Source: a virus
IMG/VR virus record: IMGVR_UViG_3300044533_000757
Coordinates: 1-20,031 of that record
DNA: 20,031 nt
Reading direction: 5' to 3' (one strand)
Part shown: positions 1,845 to 18,498 of the stretch, piece after piece
Layout: the number at the start of each line of letters is the position of its first letter
How positions within the stretch are numbered: the stretch's first letter is position 1
The notes under the pieces: model-generated
Told to the model about the DNA's origin: nothing
Databases searched by the model: none
Seen by the model: the letters and a program-made list of their open reading frames with translations, nothing else
Position numbers and translations under genes: made by a program

Positions 1845-3866
1845 ATGGCGATCCGTCTTTCCATAGACATTGAAACTTGTTCTGAGGCTGATCTTAGGAA
1901 AGTCGGAACCTATGTCTACGCACAGCACCCTTCTACGAAGATCCTGTGCGTTGGCTACGCGATAGACGACGCGCCAGCGAAAGTTTGGCGCGCCGTTGAT
2001 GAACCAATGCCAGAGGACTTGTATGCCGCCGTCCATGACAAAGAGACGGAGTTTTACGCGTGGAACGCCGCTAACTTTGAGATGGTTCTTTTACCGAACC
2101 TAATTGAGTGGCCGATTATTAACACGCGAAAATGGCATTGCACGATGACGCGCGCAGCCTATTGGGGCTTGCCGATGAAACTAGAAACGGCCGCTGATGC
2201 GCTGCGACTTGGTTGGCGCAAAGACATGGCCGGACACAGACTGATGCTTTCTATGTCAAAGCCTCGCGCCAATGGAACTTACTGGCATGAGAGCAAAGAT
2301 AAGAAAGAGCTTTGGCGCTTCAAAGCGCTTTGCGACTACTGCATACAAGACGTTGAGGTCGAGCGCGACATAGCAAAGAACTTGCCGCCGCTTCCAGAAG
2401 ACGAAGAAAAGATATGGCGTCTTGATTACACGATGATGCGCCGCGGAATGCCTATTGATGTAAAGGCAATCACCGCGCTCAAAGACGTCGCAGAAAACCA
2501 ATTAAAGCGCCTAGACGAACAAATGCGCAAGGCGTCTTTCGGTAAAGTTCCCACAGTGGGAAACGTCGGCGCGCTCACGCGTTGGTGTCATGCGCGCATG
2601 AACCAGTTGGGCATACATCAGCAAAAAGCAGAAGAATTACTCCCAGCCGTAGATAAGGAAAGTATTGATGCTTTTCTATCCGAACTCGAACAAGAAGCGA
2701 CGCACTTCGTCCATCGTTCGTCAAAATTATCTATCCCGACAGATATTGCGGACATGCTGCGTATCCGCAAAGAGGCCGCAAAAAGTTCTGTTGCCAAATT
2801 ACAAGCAATGGAAAAGTGCGCGACATCTGACGCCCGTATTCACGGTCTGACAATGTTCTATGGCGCCAGCCGAACAGGTCGCTGGGCGGGCCGATTGGTG
2901 CAAGTTCAAAACTTGCCCCGCGGCATTAAAGGCGTCGATCCAAACATTGAAATTGAAAAGATACTTTCACAGCGCACGAACTACGCCGCGCCAACAGGCG
3001 TCACGCGTCTTGAGGCTATCTCTGCATGTCTTCGTGGTTGTTTCAAACCACATAAAGGTAAATTCTATGTTGGCGATTTTAGTCAGATCGAAGCGCGGGT
3101 TGTTGCATGGCTCGCAAGGCAGCAAGACATTCTTGACGTGTTCGAGAGCGGCGAAGATGTCTATACCTTCACGGCAAACAAGCTTGGATCAAAAGATCGC
3201 CAGTTTGGCAAAGTTCTGGTGTTGGCTTGCGGCTTTGGAATGGGACCGGCAAAATTCAAAGACACTGCGGCAACATACGGCCTTGATCTCACAGACGAGC
3301 AAGCCAAAGAAGCCGTGACGCTCTGGCGCGGCGCGAACCTAAACATTGTTCAATTTTGGAAAGATTTAGAGAAAGCTGCGCGACTTGTTTTAGACGGCGC
3401 GACTAAGTCGCGCGTTGTCACGGTTGGCAAAGTCGCGTTGGCGATGGGCGCAGGTAAACTTTCTGGATGTCTGTTAATTCGTCTGCCTTCTGGGCGACAG
3501 CTTGTTTATCGTGAAGCGCGTTTGCTTGATCGGCAAGATGGGTTTCCCCCGGCGATAGCTTACGCGGGCCAAAATCAAATAACGCGTAAATGGGAAACGA
3601 CTTACACCTATGGCGGCAAAATCTGCGAAAACATAGTTCAAGCGTGCGCTTCTGACCTATTGCGCTTTGCGCTGACAAAGATCCCATTCAGTTTGCATCC
3701 TCTTGTCACCATACACGACGAAATCGTGTGTTCTATTGGTGACACTTACTTTGAGGAAAAGGTGAACTTAAAGGATCTGACCAAAGCCATGACAATGTCG
3801 CCGCCCTGGGCGGATGGTCTACCGATTGGCGCAGATGTCAAATCTATGGACAGGTATGGTAAGTAA
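1845..3866 (+). CDS. polA: Family A DNA polymerase (PolA-type) with 3'-5' exonuclease
   Basis: A 673-aa replicative phage polymerase with no 5' nuclease domain. The N-terminal third is a 3'-5' proofreading exonuclease: DIET (D8, E10), NAANFE (residues 74-79) and Y165-x3-D169. The C-terminal half has the polymerase motifs: motif A GDFSQIEAR with catalytic D411, the O-helix from R452 through K456 to F464, and motif C HDE with D625. Aligning the O-helix R-x3-K-x7-[YF]-G with Klenow places Leu460 at the Phe762 position and Phe464 at the Tyr766 position. Leu at 762 is a known class of viral PolA linked in marine surveys to temperate phages. The gene starts 2 bp after the previous stop; a GTGGAG lies 11 bp before its ATG. 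Confidence 0.95.
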   Translation: MAIRLSIDIETCSEADLRKVGTYVYAQHPSTKILCVGYAIDDAPAKVWRAVDEPMPEDLYAAVHDKETEFYAWNAANFEMVLLPNLIEWPIINTRKWHCTMTRAAYWGLPMKLETAADALRLGWRKDMAGHRLMLSMSKPRANGTYWHESKDKKELWRFKALCDYCIQDVEVERDIAKNLPPLPEDEEKIWRLDYTMMRRGMPIDVKAITALKDVAENQLKRLDEQMRKASFGKVPTVGNVGALTRWCHARMNQLGIHQQKAEELLPAVDKESIDAFLSELEQEATHFVHRSSKLSIPTDIADMLRIRKEAAKSSVAKLQAMEKCATSDARIHGLTMFYGASRTGRWAGRLVQVQNLPRGIKGVDPNIEIEKILSQRTNYAAPTGVTRLEAISACLRGCFKPHKGKFYVGDFSQIEARVVAWLARQQDILDVFESGEDVYTFTANKLGSKDRQFGKVLVLACGFGMGPAKFKDTAATYGLDLTDEQAKEAVTLWRGANLNIVQFWKDLEKAARLVLDGATKSRVVTVGKVALAMGAGKLSGCLLIRLPSGRQLVYREARLLDRQDGFPPAIAYAGQNQITRKWETTYTYGGKICENIVQACASDLLRFALTKIPFSLHPLVTIHDEIVCSIGDTYFEEKVNLKDLTKAMTMSPPWADGLPIGADVKSMDRYGK

Positions 3867-5645: not shown

Positions 5646-6542
5646 ATGAAACTTTTAAAATGGCTGACGCAAGTCATTGATCGACGTGTGTCGCAAGGAA
5701 GCTTATCGGAAGGGTCGGCAGGGCTTTATAAGGCGGCGCATAAACGCCTGCCTAAGAAGCTGCTTGACCTCAACCTTGCCGATGTAAAACGACGCGACGT
5801 TGAAGACGCGGTCGCGGATATGAATGCCCGCGGACTTAGCCCCGCTACAATCAAACACGCGCTTACGATCCTGGGCAGCGCGTTTAATGACGCGATTGAT
5901 AATGACTTGATCCAGGCGAACCCAGCCGTGCGGATCAAGACACCTAAGAAAAAGACCAGGCTAAATAGAAACGTCTCAGACGATGGTTTGAAGCGCCTAC
6001 TCAACATAGCAGCAAATCACCCCTATGGCTGGTTGCTGCGTTTTGCGTTGGGGTCTGGGCTTCGTCGCGGTGAACTACTTGCGTTGAATTGGGGCGACAT
6101 AGACCTGACCGCTGGCACGGTCGCAGTGAACAAGAGCATCATTGTTGTGGATAATAAAGAACAAATCTCCACGCCAAAAACCGCTTCAAGTATCCGCGTT
6201 GTGACGTTGCCCCCGGCCATTGTCGCAGAGGCTACCCGCCGCCGCGGCAACTATGACGACGAAAATCCAGTATTCGTAAGCAGCCAGAAATGCCGTCTTG
6301 CGCTTTCCACAGCCAGCGACAGAATTAAAGAAATGCTGGTTGAAGCGGGCTTACCCGATCAGACCTTGCACTCTTTACGGCATACCCACGCGTCACAACT
6401 TGTGTCTTCTGGTTGTCCGCTTCCTGCAATCGCGCAGCGTATGGGTCATGCCAATGTCGCTACAACAATGTCGGTTTACGCTCACGCCTCGGCAAGCGAA
6501 GATGCCAAATTAGCCGCAGCAATCGGACAGGCTGTTAGTTAA
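5646..6542 (+). CDS. int: Tyrosine recombinase, phage integrase
   Basis: A 298-aa site-specific recombinase of the phage integrase/XerC type. An N-terminal core-binding region of about 105 residues is followed by the catalytic domain with all expected residues: R140 in GSGLRRGE, K178 in STPKTASS, H242-x2-R245 in LHSLRHTH, H268 in MGHAN, and nucleophile Y278 in MSVYAHA. It is shorter than lambda-type integrases (about 350-400 aa) and I see no separate arm-binding domain. It should catalyse integration and excision of the phage. A GGGGG run upstream could serve as ribosome-binding site. It is convergent with the late operon and its last 8 bases overlap the end of the ejection-protein gene, leaving no room for a terminator between them. 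Confidence 0.95.
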   Translation: MKLLKWLTQVIDRRVSQGSLSEGSAGLYKAAHKRLPKKLLDLNLADVKRRDVEDAVADMNARGLSPATIKHALTILGSAFNDAIDNDLIQANPAVRIKTPKKKTRLNRNVSDDGLKRLLNIAANHPYGWLLRFALGSGLRRGELLALNWGDIDLTAGTVAVNKSIIVVDNKEQISTPKTASSIRVVTLPPAIVAEATRRRGNYDDENPVFVSSQKCRLALSTASDRIKEMLVEAGLPDQTLHSLRHTHASQLVSSGCPLPAIAQRMGHANVATTMSVYAHASASEDAKLAAAIGQAVS

Positions 6543-13314: not shown

Positions 13315-13528
13315 TCGTCGTAAGAGTTCCAGAGTTGTCTACCGTCACTTGGTAGACAGTCCCGTTTGGCGCTTGCAGGAGTATTTGCGGCTGGATCGTA
13401 TTTGGCCCTGCCAACAGGCTAATTCGACGTGCCAACAGCGAAAGGAACGAAGACATCCAAAGCGTGTCGTATTGCTTTGGGGCCGCTCCAAAGGTGGGAA
13501 GTGGTAAGGGCTTAGTGCTTGTCGTCAC
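13277..13528 (-). CDS. Small phage structural protein (83 aa)
   Basis: A GTG start at 13528 overlaps the stop of the large tail protein as GTGA. The first 20 residues are proline- and threonine-rich ([10 protein letters not shown]). A helical middle ([19 protein letters not shown]) and a beta-like end ([20 protein letters not shown]) follow. Small proteins of this shape (LP-rich start, helix, then a VD-x-SG-x-L ending) are common between head/tail genes of phages and are usually unnamed. It could be a connector or chaperone for its neighbours. Its 3' end overlaps the next gene by up to 38 bp. Confidence 0.6.
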
Positions 13529-15543
13529 CGTCTTCCCCCATTACCTACAATATCTAACCTAATCGCGCCCAAACTCCAATAGTCATCGTTTGTCGCTTCG
13601 ACCCGCAGTCGAATATCGCGGCCAGATACGCGGGTGTCTGTATAACTGTCTGCCCTGGGCGCGTAAGGACCATAGGTCACTTCTGTCTGGCCGGGGGCAA
13701 AACGCGTTAAGAATTTGATTTGATAATTACTGACGTCGCTGTCTGGATCTGACGACACCATAGCTTGATTAATGTCAACATTGTCTGATCCTTGTCCAGC
13801 GTCCAAGACAGCCGTCTCGGCCCAGACATTGCCAACCCTAGACACGCCGTCTTCTAGCCAACCGTCCTCTTGTTGGAAGACATTGTTGTCTACGCTGGAC
13901 GCCAAGGGGAAACTCGCCGTGACCGCGCCTACCGCAGCGGTTCTCTGTCTTTCGCCTCTAATCCAGAAATTTTCACTGTAGTTCCAGATCACATAATTGT
14001 TGCACTCGCCGTCGGTTGCGTGAATGTCTGGATACTCAAACCAAAATTCGGGGAACGCCCCATTTTCGTGCATATGCGCGCGGTAGTTTCCATAGAGCGG
14101 ATCGTAGTTCTGTTTGATGTGGTTAAACATTGGACAAGGCAACAAACGCACTGCGCCGCCGTCGTAACGCCAGAAACCACTCTCACCAAACCAGATTGTT
14201 TGTGCGCCACCCGCCGCGATTGCATTAGGCGCAGAAAATGTTGTGGAGCCTAGTTTCTCGACACCGTAGAAATAAGGCGCGCCAACATAGCGAACGAGAA
14301 AACATTCATGCTGCGTTAAGACAAGGATACCTTCTTTTACGCGAACGCCAGTAATGATGGGCGATGATGCTTCCAAGTCTATGTAACCAGCTTGTCCAGT
14401 AGTCGTGTTGAAGGTCCAACCGTTGTAGTTTTCCAGATCAGACCACGCGATACGACGCGGATTTCCACCTGCACCCATAAGCATAACCGCGCGTTCCGCA
14501 GTAACGGCCATAGCGTAATTATCTATTGGCGCGTTTGACGGCACATCCATTGCTGGAATAACGCCCGTTGTAGGTGACAAATGAAGCAATCTGCCATCAG
14601 AAGAACAGACACCCAATAAATCCTGTCCAAATGACGAAAAGGTCCAATGGTCCGGTTTACGAAAAATTGGTGGGTTGGAACTGCGGGCGCGACCATAGTT
14701 ATCTTGTCCAACAATAAAGCTACCTGTGTGCGTTCCAGAACCAGCACTAGATGTGTTTACTGGAGGACCATTTTTACCAGAGGCCAACACCGTTGTGCTA
14801 GACACGGTCTGAGACGCGCTAACCGTATATGTCCCCGTGCCGCCTGTTCCAGTGCCAAACGCAGTTATTCGAGTGCCAACGGTTACGCCTGTGCCGCTTA
14901 AGAATTGACCCACAGCTAACGTGCCGCTTGATACCGCCGAAACAGTAAAAGTTGTTCCAGATATTGCGCCGGTCACACTTGCGGGCGCGCATACCCGGAA
15001 TGTGTCTGTGCTGACAGGAATAACATAATACGGCGTGCCTACCACCAAACCTGTTGGCAAAGAGCCTGTCGTCGTGAACTTGACAACGTCATCTGAGGTG
15101 AAGCCGTGGTTCACCCAAGTAATCACCGCGGGCGACGCATTAGTAATTGTTACGGTAGCGGTTGCAACAATCGTTGTGCCAGACGGATCGGGGATCGGAA
15201 TATCGTCCGTTCCCCAATCCAGAGAGCTATACCCGCCGCCAGATACAGCGGCCATGCCAATAAAGTTCGATGGTGTGACATCTGCAAGCGACCCAAACAG
15301 AACTTGCACGCCGCTTTCGTGGCCTATCGCGGTCCATTCACGCGCGTCATTATCGCGCCATTGAAACAAAGCTCTTATCTTATCTGGTAGAGGTTGCGCC
15401 GTGATACGCGTGCAACCCCCGATAGGCATAATGCTACCTGCGAGCCAACGGACGTTAGACGTGTCCCACCAAGTATTAGGCGCGTCGTAGGGCGTCGCTT
15501 GTCTAACGACGCCAGGGGGAAATTTAAACGGAACCCACGTCAT
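13525..15543 (-). CDS. Tail hub/nozzle-like virion protein (672 aa) with inserted beta domains
   Basis: A large structural protein that starts [15 protein letters not shown] and continues [19 protein letters not shown]. Its body has repeated beta-propeller-like segments ([46 protein letters not shown]). The end, [20 protein letters not shown], resembles the C-termini of DNA-stabilisation/tail-hub proteins such as P22 gp10 or of tail-nozzle proteins. I use that as a functional analogy, not proven homology. Residues about 121-275 form a low-complexity T/S/G/V-rich insertion made of two different beta modules. The gene overlaps the oxygenase stop as ATGA and is followed by a GTGA-coupled small gene. 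It probably closes the tail and is a main structural part of the short tail. Confidence 0.7.
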
Positions 15544-16100
15544 TCTGCGGCCTCTAATTTCTCAATAGGTAGAATGTCGCCGTCAAATGTTGCGACAAAC
15601 ACAAGTCTCATCTGTTGGGGTTTACAAAATCCTTGAGCGTGCCAACCCCCCTCAAAGACAACAAATTTATCCATTTCGGGTTTAACTACCTCGACAACGT
15701 CTGTGCCTGTCTCATCCAGTATGAAAGTCTCGCCAGCATCAAACTGGTTTAGGTAAATGAGAATATGTTTATGCTCAAACGCGGGGTGATCTATGTGGGG
15801 ATCACCATGCTTACTAGGGTCCGCAAAAGTCAGATTAAGCGCCATACGATAAACTTTTTTGATTTCGATATTATTGTCGGCGCATACGCGTCGGAGCATA
15901 CGCATAGCTTGCGGGTAAAAAGGTGAATGCGGAATACCTGCGGTTTGTTCTTCTGATCTCTTCATAAGATCATGCGTCATAACCGGGAAATTTAAAGTAG
16001 CCATACCCGCATACCAAGGGAAATCCCCGCTTCCAACTACGCGTAAGAAAGCAGTTTCATTTTCATTAAAATTGCACGGGCCTTCACGTAGAACCGCCAT
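15540..16100 (-). CDS. 2OG-Fe(II) oxygenase
   Basis: A 186-aa protein with the iron facial triad H102-x-D104 (GDPHIDHP) and H154 ([10 protein letters not shown]), plus R165 (QQMRLVF) placed to bind 2-oxoglutarate. The [14 protein letters not shown] segment before the HxD motif is typical of phage and prolyl-hydroxylase-like members. It should hydroxylate a substrate using 2-oxoglutarate and O2. The substrate is unknown: a virion protein, a host surface molecule or nucleic acid are all possible. It sits inside the tail operon, 1 bp after the glycine-rich adhesin gene (with GGAG as ribosome-binding site) and overlapping the tail-hub gene by 4 bp, so it is made late with structural proteins. Confidence 0.85.
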
Positions 16101-16101
16101 C

Positions 16102-16779
16102 TTAGCTCCACTCTAATTTAATATATCCTGACGCCCCGCCGCTTCCGGCTCCTGTCGCGCTGTCACAGTAGTAAGATGTAAATCCTGCAAGACACGCGAC
16201 ATACGGCCAGCTTTCGTAATAGCGTAGGTCGGTGCAAGTGTAAGTCGATCTTGTGTTATATCCCGTAGAGCCTGCGCCCCCGCCACTCCCGACAGTCCCA
16301 TACGGTTGCGTTCCGTAAAGCGCGATTATGCTTGCTTGGTTTTCGTCTGTTATTGTCCACGTTCGCGTTGCTGTGGAACCTACGCCGCCATTAGCCGCGC
16401 CGCCTGCACCTGTAACATAATCACCATACTTACTATCGTAACCTGGTCCGCCATTCCCGCCGCCGTTGCAATTACCGGCTACACCTTGTGTTCCACCATT
16501 CCCGCCTTTGACAGTTACAGTCAAAGTATTGAACGTGGGGAAAGTAATCGCCTGCGAAGTTGTATATGTGACGCCGCCAACAGGCGACGGAACTACGGGC
16601 GATGTATTTCTTGTTCCCGCAAAGCTAGAAAAGGATATAGGTCCAGACGCGACAAAGTTTCCTCGCGCATTGTTCTCTTTATACCAACGAGCGTTGTAAT
16701 ACGCGCCCAAGTTATTCCCGAGGCTAAAAGCAGACTGAATGTCGCTCATACTTATGGGGGTAGACGGAACAGTCGTCAT
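16102..16779 (-). CDS. Glycine-rich tail adhesin-like protein (225 aa)
   Basis: The N-terminal 60 residues (MSDIQSAFSLGNNLGAYYNA, then RWY and ISFSSFAGTRNT) form a module that I associate with phage tail proteins and that probably attaches to the tail. After a short beta region, residues about 93-180 are very glycine-rich (GGNGG, GGGNGGPG, GAGGAANGGVG, GSGGGAGS). Such blocks can form polyglycine-II sandwiches as in T-even gp38 adhesins. The C-terminal part carries cysteines and aromatics (YTC, YVAC, YYC) and ends GYIKLEWS. A role in host recognition is inferred. The ATG overlaps the stop of the 106-aa gene as ATGA. Confidence 0.65.
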   Translation of the reverse strand: MTTVPSTPISMSDIQSAFSLGNNLGAYYNARWYKENNARGNFVASGPISFSSFAGTRNTSPVVPSPVGGVTYTTSQAITFPTFNTLTVTVKGGNGGTQGVAGNCNGGGNGGPGYDSKYGDYVTGAGGAANGGVGSTATRTWTITDENQASIIALYGTQPYGTVGSGGGAGSTGYNTRSTYTCTDLRYYESWPYVACLAGFTSYYCDSATGAGSGGASGYIKLEWS

Positions 16780-17096
16780 TGTTGGTTGCCCTCACGCGAG
16801 ACAAAGTATGTGTGCAGACCTGCAACAATTCCTGAGTAAGGCGTCAATTCTCCATCTGCCAACCAAGCGTTTTGTTCTTCAGAATACCGATATTCGACGT
16901 CTGGTAATTCAAACAATTTTGACGATGGCAGAGGATACACAAAGCGAAAGCATCCCCAGCCGCCAGGAACTTCTATGAACGGATCGGAGACGTGTTCCGT
17001 ATAGTCCACGGTGAAGAATAGACCTCTAGCGAACCAGTATTGTGCTCGCGCGGTAAATTCATCAATCGTGGAGTTATTGACGATTATATAATTCAT
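16776..17096 (-). CDS. Hypothetical small tail-operon protein (106 aa)
   Basis: I do not recognise this protein. It is compact and rich in aromatic residues (AQYWFARGLFFTVDYTEH, GGWGCFRFVYPLP), with a charged middle (DVEYRYSEEQNAWLADGE) and no membrane segment or signal peptide. It is linked by 4-bp ATGA overlaps to both the upstream S74 fibre gene and the downstream glycine-rich adhesin gene. That position suggests a fibre-assembly chaperone or a small fibre-tip protein. Confidence 0.65.
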   Translation of the reverse strand: MNYIIVNNSTIDEFTARAQYWFARGLFFTVDYTEHVSDPFIEVPGGWGCFRFVYPLPSSKLFELPDVEYRYSEEQNAWLADGELTPYSGIVAGLHTYFVSREGNQQ

Positions 17097-17989
17097 CTTG
17101 CAGTCTCTAGCGCAGCGACTTTGTTTGAAAGCTCTTTGACCGCCTCGATAAGAATGCCGACAAGATTGCCGTATGCGACAGAGAGTGTGCCGTCATTCTC
17201 AACAACGACCTCTGGAACAATGTCACGCATTTCCTGGGCTATGACGCCCACGCCAGCTTCACCCGTATCAATGCGGTCGTAATAAACACCCCGCATTTGA
17301 TTTACGAGACCGACAGCGTTTTCGATTGTCTTGACGTTTTGTTTAAGTCTGGCGTCGGAATAAGCCGTCACGTTGCCCGCAGCCGTAAAGTCGCCAGTTG
17401 AGATATTCCAAGACACACGCGCCGTTCCGCCAGAGTTTTTAAAACCTGCGAGCGTAGCGTTACCAAAATAATAGCCTGCGGATGATCCCAGCGTGAGGGT
17501 CATTTCTGTCGTGCTATTTATGATAGACAGATTACCCGTGAGCGTGCCGCCCGTAAGGTTGAGTTTAAGCGCGTCGGCGGTGTCTACATAGGCTTTGGTT
17601 GTTGGGTTAGTCGATGCGCTGGGTGTTTGCACTGTCACCGCGCCAGAAAACGCAGCCGCTCCAGAAACATTGACCGCGCCGAGCGTCGTTGTGCCTGTTA
17701 CAGCTATGGTGCTTGCAAATGTTGCTGCGCCTGTATGCGCCGATGTCCCAGATAGAGTTGTATTACCCGTAACTAGTAAAGTGTTATCAAACGTGACAGC
17801 GCCGTTTACACGTAGCGTCTGTCCAAATACCATTGGGCCAGCAGCGGTCTGCGACGTCGTTAGAGCACGCGACAAAACGTGTGTGTCTAATGTGTCTAAG
17901 TCAGTATTAAGATGCGTTCCCCACGCATTCGTGTCCGCGCCGACTTCGGGTTTAATGAGGTTATATGTCGTCGTGTATGTGTTTGCCAT
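17093..17989 (-). CDS. Tail fibre with C-terminal S74 intramolecular chaperone
   Basis: A 298-aa fibre protein. Residues 1-45 (MANTYTTTYNLIKPEVGADT and following) look like an attachment domain. Residues about 55-125 are T/G/A-rich beta repeats of the 'VTGNTTLSG' type that form trimeric shafts. Residues 128-155 carry the NPTTKAYVD and LTGGTLTGNLS fibre motifs. The last 88 residues are a peptidase S74 chaperone with the catalytic dyad S211 and K216 in SDARLK, then GVIAQEM and VAYGNLVGILIEA. In this family the domain helps trimer folding and cuts itself off at the serine. Cleavage would leave a shaft of about 210 residues, small for a phage fibre. The ATG overlaps the previous stop as TAATG. 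Confidence 0.85.
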   Translation of the reverse strand: MANTYTTTYNLIKPEVGADTNAWGTHLNTDLDTLDTHVLSRALTTSQTAAGPMVFGQTLRVNGAVTFDNTLLVTGNTTLSGTSAHTGAATFASTIAVTGTTTLGAVNVSGAAAFSGAVTVQTPSASTNPTTKAYVDTADALKLNLTGGTLTGNLSIINSTTEMTLTLGSSAGYYFGNATLAGFKNSGGTARVSWNISTGDFTAAGNVTAYSDARLKQNVKTIENAVGLVNQMRGVYYDRIDTGEAGVGVIAQEMRDIVPEVVVENDGTLSVAYGNLVGILIEAVKELSNKVAALETAR

Positions 17990-18498
17990 TATATCACCGT
18001 CGTAAGGTAAGGTGCGGGGTCATTCTTTGGCACCCAGATTGTTGGGTCGTCAGGCTGGTCAGGTTCAAGCCATAGGATGTATGCGTTTTGTGCATAGCTA
18101 TCCGGCGTCTCTGTAGCCGCCATAGCCATTGTGCCAGACATATTGATTGCGAATGCCGCAACGTCTGGAGCTTCAGTTAAATCGAAATAGATATTCTGGT
18201 TATTAAGAGTAAATGCGACAGTATCTGGAGCTTCAACTGCAACTAAATACGCGCCACCTGTAACCTGTGCAGCAATCGCTGCCGTATCTTTTGCATCAGT
18301 CGCAGCTAATGAAACAGTTGCAAAAATACCAACATTGATTGCAGATATATCTTTAGCTTCTGTCGCTGCAATACTAACATTAGTAACACTGGTTAATGAA
18401 ATGCTCGAACTGTCTTGAGCGTCCGTCGCTAATAATATAGCGGCAGTCCCGCCAGCGGCCCCTAATGGGCTAGAGGCTATTGGTGAGAAACCAAGCAT
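17989..18498 (-). CDS. 21-residue-repeat tail-operon protein (169 aa)
   Basis: The protein opens with MLGFSPIASSPLG, a start seen in other phage structural proteins. Six tandem units of about 21 residues follow, each with a signature like AATDAKD or VEAPD. The key aspartates fall at 29, 50, 71, 92, 112 and 133, giving spacings of 21, 21, 21, 20 and 21. The units alternate hydrophobic beta-like stretches and small residues, as in beta-solenoid or fibre-shaft repeats. The C-terminus (LWLEPDQPDDPTIWVPKNDP) is not repetitive and is acidic and tryptophan-containing. It probably forms part of the fibre or its collar. Its stop overlaps the S74 fibre start by 1 bp. Confidence 0.7.
   Translation of the reverse strand: MLGFSPIASSPLGAAGGTAAILLATDAQDSSSISLTSVTNVSIAATEAKDISAINVGIFATVSLAATDAKDTAAIAAQVTGGAYLVAVEAPDTVAFTLNNQNIYFDLTEAPDVAAFAINMSGTMAMAATETPDSYAQNAYILWLEPDQPDDPTIWVPKNDPAPYLTTVI

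Follow-up and report, generated by a model that had tools for sequence, protein, structure and literature searches.

Aquatic phages commonly encode 2-oxoglutarate (2OG)-Fe(II) oxygenases, genes that are usually explained as contributions to DNA repair or to 2OG/nitrogen metabolism (excerpts of PMC3037559 and PMC4164917). One 2OG hydroxylase of viral origin whose presumed targets are proteins of the virus is the prolyl 4-hydroxylase of chlorovirus PBCV-1, which, unlike the enzyme described below, belongs to a eukaryotic virus, takes peptide substrates and is unlinked to a phage receptor-binding protein (excerpts of PMC9301287). Glycine-rich adhesins form a second point of comparison: in the gp38 proteins, such as those of phages S16 and PP01, variable loops bind the receptor (excerpts of PMC12892980), and in Pam3 gp24 receptor binding has been proposed for the glycine-rich motifs, at their distal ends (excerpts of PMC9608196). 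The words 'oxygenase' and 'hydroxylase' are absent from the Pam3 paper. Among the titles and excerpts retrieved in literature searches, no case was recognizable in which a 2OG oxygenase modifies a tail protein of a phage.

The window analyzed here—a stretch of 20,031 nucleotides of viral DNA (IMG/VR record IMGVR_UViG_3300044533_000757)—brings an oxygenase and a glycine-rich adhesin together in one run of minus-strand tail genes. The run includes a cassette whose first gene (17093–17989) encodes a tail-fibre protein with a Peptidase_S74 (endosialidase-type chaperone) domain, followed by a 106-aa protein (16776–17096) that is more variable than the adhesin, the 225-aa adhesin itself (16102–16779) and the 186-aa oxygenase (15540–16100; ATG start, TGA stop). 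The downstream neighbor (13525–15543), part of the backbone and outside the cassette, encodes a 672-aa gp10-like tail/stabilization protein. The initial annotation had described the enzyme as translationally linked to the adhesin and to a 'tail-hub protein', and both links are borne out by the sequence. The oxygenase ATG begins one base past the adhesin stop codon, with a probable ribosome site (GGAG, 16106–16109, minus strand, five bases before the ATG) lying in the terminal part of the adhesin gene, and its own stop codon overlaps the ATG of the gp10-like gene (ATGA, 15540–15543). The name given to the 672-aa protein needs some qualification: it matches 'stabilization' and structural proteins of podovirus-type phages, and its phiM5 relative was found in particles, according to a note in the phiM5 record. 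The window protein is 66 residues longer than its 606-aa counterparts in contigs L001 and L009, and a region around residues 182–276 matches tail-fibre-type PHROGs.

The junction between the oxygenase and the gp10-like gene (15540–15554, minus strand) deserves closer inspection. A GAGG motif at 15551–15554, the probable ribosome site of the gp10-like gene, also codes for part of the C-terminal KLEAAE of the oxygenase, a stretch common to the window, L001 and L009; the bases ahead of the gp10-like ATG are identical in the latter two contigs. The copy in L010, which does not adjoin a gp10-like gene, lacks the KLEAAE stretch and is nine residues shorter at its C-terminus. Because these residues are missing there, share their coding with a ribosome site and have a predicted confidence (pLDDT) below 50 over the last five positions of the AlphaFold model, they were probably acquired as a side effect when the oxygenase gene was inserted ahead of the gp10-like gene.

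Several other features of the window merit a brief description. Its left part, on the plus strand, encodes a DUF2800/PDDEXK-type protein, an Enc34-type SSB and a DNA polymerase A, and a tyrosine integrase is encoded at 5646–6542 (Phage_integrase, E = 5e-25), so the phage may be temperate. The gene immediately preceding that of the S74 fibre (17989–18498) encodes a repetitive protein of 169 aa that shares only about 48% identity with its counterpart in L009, and the S74 fibre next to that counterpart is 87% identical to the one in the window. Finally, a 117-aa DUF5856 protein lies just ahead of the tail gene in L061 (5637–5990); proteins of similar size without a match occur in several relatives, a similar-looking 121-aa protein adjoins the adhesin of G001, and no protein of this type was seen in the window.

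The 186-aa protein is, by motif and predicted fold, a 2OG-Fe(II) oxygenase, in agreement with the earlier reading of a complete enzyme with residues H102, D104, H154 and R165. The H-x-D...H iron triad of the superfamily is present, and R165 supplies the basic residue downstream of the distal histidine that binds the 2OG carboxylate. H102, D104 and R165 are invariant in all 14 aligned sequences (the window counted), while H154 aligns in 11 of them, the alignment placing a histidine one column later in L014, L015 and L017. The AlphaFold model (mean pLDDT 90.7) adopts a double-stranded beta-helix, with a Burkholderia 2OG oxygenase (6n1f; Z = 15.2, 2.8 Å over 164 residues) as its best match in the PDB, followed by a Shewanella oxygenase, PiuC, PHD2, OGFOD1 and bacterial prolyl 4-hydroxylase (P4H), including 4iw3, a bacterial P4H solved with EF-Tu. 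AlkB comes close behind (Z = 12.2–12.3), and ALKBH structures were matched as well. The predicted fold, the H-x-D...H motif with its arginine and the domain size resemble enzymes of the PHD/P4H type (PHD2, bacterial P4H, OGFOD1 and PiuC), to which a profile of the oxygenase family also weakly matches in the form of prolyl hydroxylase sequences in the PDB; identity over the structural alignments, however, is about 12–15%, and the window enzyme differs in being phage-encoded and in belonging to an adhesin cassette. The sole Pfam match is to 2OG-FeII_Oxy_3 (PF13640), at 15.4 bits against a gathering cut-off of 27—a cut-off exceeded by its relative gp039 of HTVC008M (32.9). The fold by itself decides neither for a protein nor for a nucleic acid substrate.

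This assignment conflicts with the label under which the family is filed. The only PHROG matched at E ≤0.01 is 274, 'DNA endonuclease V' (E = 9.6e-24, residues 23–172), a name also borne by relatives in several cyanophage and pelagiphage records; the P-RSM4 record calls its member denV, and Sullivan et al. 2010 list denV in a table, in the row for genes that 13 cyanophage genomes contain (excerpt of PMC3037559). We checked eight relatives against Pfam: seven go by the name 'DNA endonuclease V' or denV, and the eighth is the close relative in L001. Matches to 2OG-FeII_Oxy_3 at E ≤1 came from six (one above the cut-off), and the remaining two had no match at all. H-x-D and the arginine are present in every one. 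T4 DenV belongs to a Pfam family of its own. That endonuclease V family (pyrimidine-dimer glycosylase) was matched neither by the window protein (E ≤0.1) nor by the eight relatives (E ≤1), the PDB sequences matched by the oxygenase family profile included no endonuclease V chain, and the fold matches of the window model include the endonuclease V-named proteins of P-SSM2, S-RIM50 and ACG-2014b. By motif and fold, the proteins so named in cyanophages and a pelagiphage, at L002 4953–5468, L003 4947–5477, L004 4935–5423 and 7270–7755, L005 4935–5477 and L006 4325–5531, are 2OG-Fe(II) oxygenase-like. Since the members checked carry the motif, the Pfam matches and the fold of 2OG oxygenases, the PHROG 274 label is very probably a transferred error, and an endonuclease V identity for the window protein—suggested by the best PHROG and by the names of its relatives—was rejected on motif and fold, leaving it a negligible probability. 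Relabeling PHROG 274 would rid many cyanophage genomes of an erroneous repair annotation.

The marine members of PHROG 274 (e.g., in P-RSM4, S-CAM1 and HTVC008M) share the profile family and the HxD...R motif with the window oxygenase, at 26–31% identity for most of those aligned and 14–20% for two, but they show no tie to this adhesin and often adjoin replication genes. The PHROG 274 gene lies between gp44 and dam in P-RSM4, near these genes in S-CAM1 and after the baseplate hub gene in HTVC008M; in L011 and L013, the oxygenase is found near clamp-loader and Dam-like genes (gene names by reading, genes from a simple greedy caller), and in L025 the same calls place it next to a 90-aa protein. 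ACG-2014b, a cyanomyovirus, has two PHROG 274 copies close to a glycine-rich protein: the product of L006 5880–6974, with a long glycine-rich C-terminal stretch, is one gene away from both, a possible second pairing. The nearest relatives of the window oxygenase occur in L001, L009, L060/L061 and L010, and are 48–68% identical among themselves. A single scan of bacterial genome contigs gave 111 pattern matches and, among them, no relative of the oxygenase.

Placement among tail genes had originally been taken to suggest hydroxylation of a virion protein, and we dropped this argument as evidence by itself. In phiM5, unrelated genes for endolysin, holin and spanin occupy the position ahead of the gp10-like gene, and other relatives have lysozyme or carboxypeptidase genes there. 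Of 29 close relatives, 25 lack an enzyme adjoining the tail gene, and the copy of G001, the 41,149-base record behind L010, lies in a replication region. A virion role nevertheless gains indirect support by a different route, because the oxygenase tracks one adhesin subtype in linked as well as unlinked positions.

The linked positions came from a scan that yielded 29 contigs with a gp10-like protein, near-duplicates such as L060 and L061 included. Using the greedy gene caller, an oxygenase was found in the cassette of four (L001, L009, L060 and L061). An adhesin gene is present on 28 (L070 does not hold a complete one), and sequence identity to the window adhesin separates the four with an oxygenase (61–67%), whose adhesins are of one subtype with that of the window, from the other 24 (32–49%). 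Counted as distinct adhesins, 23 including that of the window, an oxygenase accompanies four and none of the remaining 19. Whole-record searches, covering 17 of the 29 lineage records and G001, detected no oxygenase relative anywhere in 16 of the 17, several of which are fragments in which the absence is local; the seventeenth, the record of L061, carries the oxygenase. An adhesin profile was also built from the five oxygenase-linked adhesins, whose high scores against it arise by construction.

The unlinked case is G001, in which no match to the gp10-like protein was found. Its oxygenase (31258–31785), 57% identical to that of the window, is encoded directly behind the genes for a DNA polymerase A and a 90-aa protein. 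About 28 kb away, at 2788–3444, the record encodes an adhesin of the window's subtype (56% identical to the window's) within an S74–109 aa–adhesin cluster that no oxygenase adjoins. We scanned 2.9 million viral contigs twice, with patterns from the N-terminus and from the C-terminus of the adhesin. Both scans recovered the full-length subtype from one identical set of five contigs, each of which carries the oxygenase; the N-terminal scan gave, in addition, five partial adhesin matches at 34–44% identity. A close oxygenase is present on six contigs; the sixth is a 10,124-base piece of the G001 phage from another sample, which the adhesin scans did not return. All these scans rely on short peptide patterns, which can overlook divergent copies, and the oxygenase scans missed L060 and L061. 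A second lineage probe, with the DNA polymerase of G001, retrieved only G001 and the copy of the same phage from another sample. The oxygenase is co-inherited with one glycine-rich adhesin subtype, both linked and unlinked.

The two genes also appear to have been exchanged. Between the window, L001 and L009, whose phage backbones are nearly identical, silent differences reach 0.68–0.78 in the oxygenase and 0.70–0.86 in the adhesin, as opposed to 0.08–0.10, with zero amino acid differences, in a 132-aa gene that follows the oxygenase at a distance of about 2.2 kb, with the gp10-like gene and an 83-aa gene in between; the gp10-like gene itself is intermediate (0.45–0.52). Because silent sites are saturated in the adhesin and oxygenase genes and nearly unchanged in the 132-aa gene, we infer that both were swapped for distant alleles, with both genes and their order retained each time, and plausibly as one unit. 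Identities of the oxygenase and the adhesin are only modestly correlated (r = 0.49, 10 pairs), which counts against a direct link. Nonsynonymous differences in the oxygenase (0.21–0.34) stay well under the silent ones, which at the sequence level indicates that the enzyme is under purifying selection and kept functional. L061, whose backbone is more distant from the window (gp10-like protein 78%, 132-aa gene 72% identical), has a cassette with an S74 fibre, an adhesin and an oxygenase that are 82%, 64% and 53% identical to those of the window.

Taken together, we favor a reading in which the enzyme is an accessory Fe(II)/2-oxoglutarate dioxygenase of the receptor-binding cassette that putatively hydroxylates the adhesin, with a probability of roughly 45%. 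Counting against it, adjacency accounts for the co-inheritance everywhere except in one phage, G001, distant members of the family often adjoin replication genes, AlkB is also a match to the fold, and both genes could instead track a common host. The strongest rival builds on the last point: the enzyme would modify a host target, either a small molecule or a protein such as a translation factor or surface receptor, and would accompany the adhesin since both suit one host. Adhesin type and host generally go together, G001 and L001 come from one metagenome (3300032221), as expected of phages with a common host, and the P4H/EF-Tu complex 4iw3 is one of the fold matches; a tight pairing within one exchanged cassette is, however, simpler to explain as a direct link, and we consider a host target somewhat doubtful.

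A nucleic acid target, in repair or base modification, would make the tail position accidental. The replication-region copy of G001, the cyanophage relatives between or near clamp-loader and dam genes, and AlkB and ALKBH among the fold matches all point this way, as does the DNA-repair role proposed for cyanophage 2OG oxygenases in the excerpts of PMC3037559. Yet the only Pfam match is the weak one to 2OG-FeII_Oxy_3, the protein is acidic (pI 5.2), and the tail-linked copies were replaced along with the adhesin, a joint replacement for which an enzyme acting on DNA would have no use; we therefore regard this explanation as unlikely. The initial annotation had offered another partner as an example, the 192-aa PPRRP protein. 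In its favor, this protein is rich in proline and its gene belongs to the run that holds the oxygenase, with PPRRP-type proteins also in L001 and L009. Its distribution contradicts this choice: G015, in which the oxygenase was not found, has a homologue with 78% identity, and no homologue was found in the oxygenase-bearing G001 and G010. The PPRRP protein was thus rejected as the substrate, a role we consider highly improbable.

The adhesin stands as the likeliest putative substrate of the oxygenase, and its sequence offers a candidate site. The adhesin has no match in a phage protein collection, and its model (mean pLDDT 92.8) finds the Pam3 fibre as top fold match, a weak one (E = 0.036). 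Its likeness to the glycine-rich adhesins lies in a glycine-rich tail-tip domain with variable loops. The five oxygenase-linked adhesins have in common, among other residues, C104, TGYN(T/N)R at 172–177, C182, C196 and the pair C205–D206; by eye, no C-D pair was seen at the place of the latter in the 19 oxygenase-free adhesins, 12 of which entered the alignment used for the adhesin model, the seven long ones being left out. Most of these subtype residues fall in a predicted hairpin (strands 174–187 and 194–208), which would make this subtype-specific hairpin (about residues 174–208) the likeliest target region.

Under the favored adhesin reading, the oxygenase would be produced late in infection along with the adhesin and would oxidize the latter at one or several positions while still inside the infected cell, ahead of tip attachment and tail assembly; the hydroxylated, mature tip would then serve receptor binding or correct folding. 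More tentatively, the phage might hydroxylate its own adhesin by way of an exchangeable two-gene unit, such that host recognition needs an oxygen-dependent modification of the tail tip, likeliest on the cysteine hairpin. If true, this would provide a defined substrate for one phage 2OG oxygenase and would mean that tail tips can need enzymatic maturation for host recognition.
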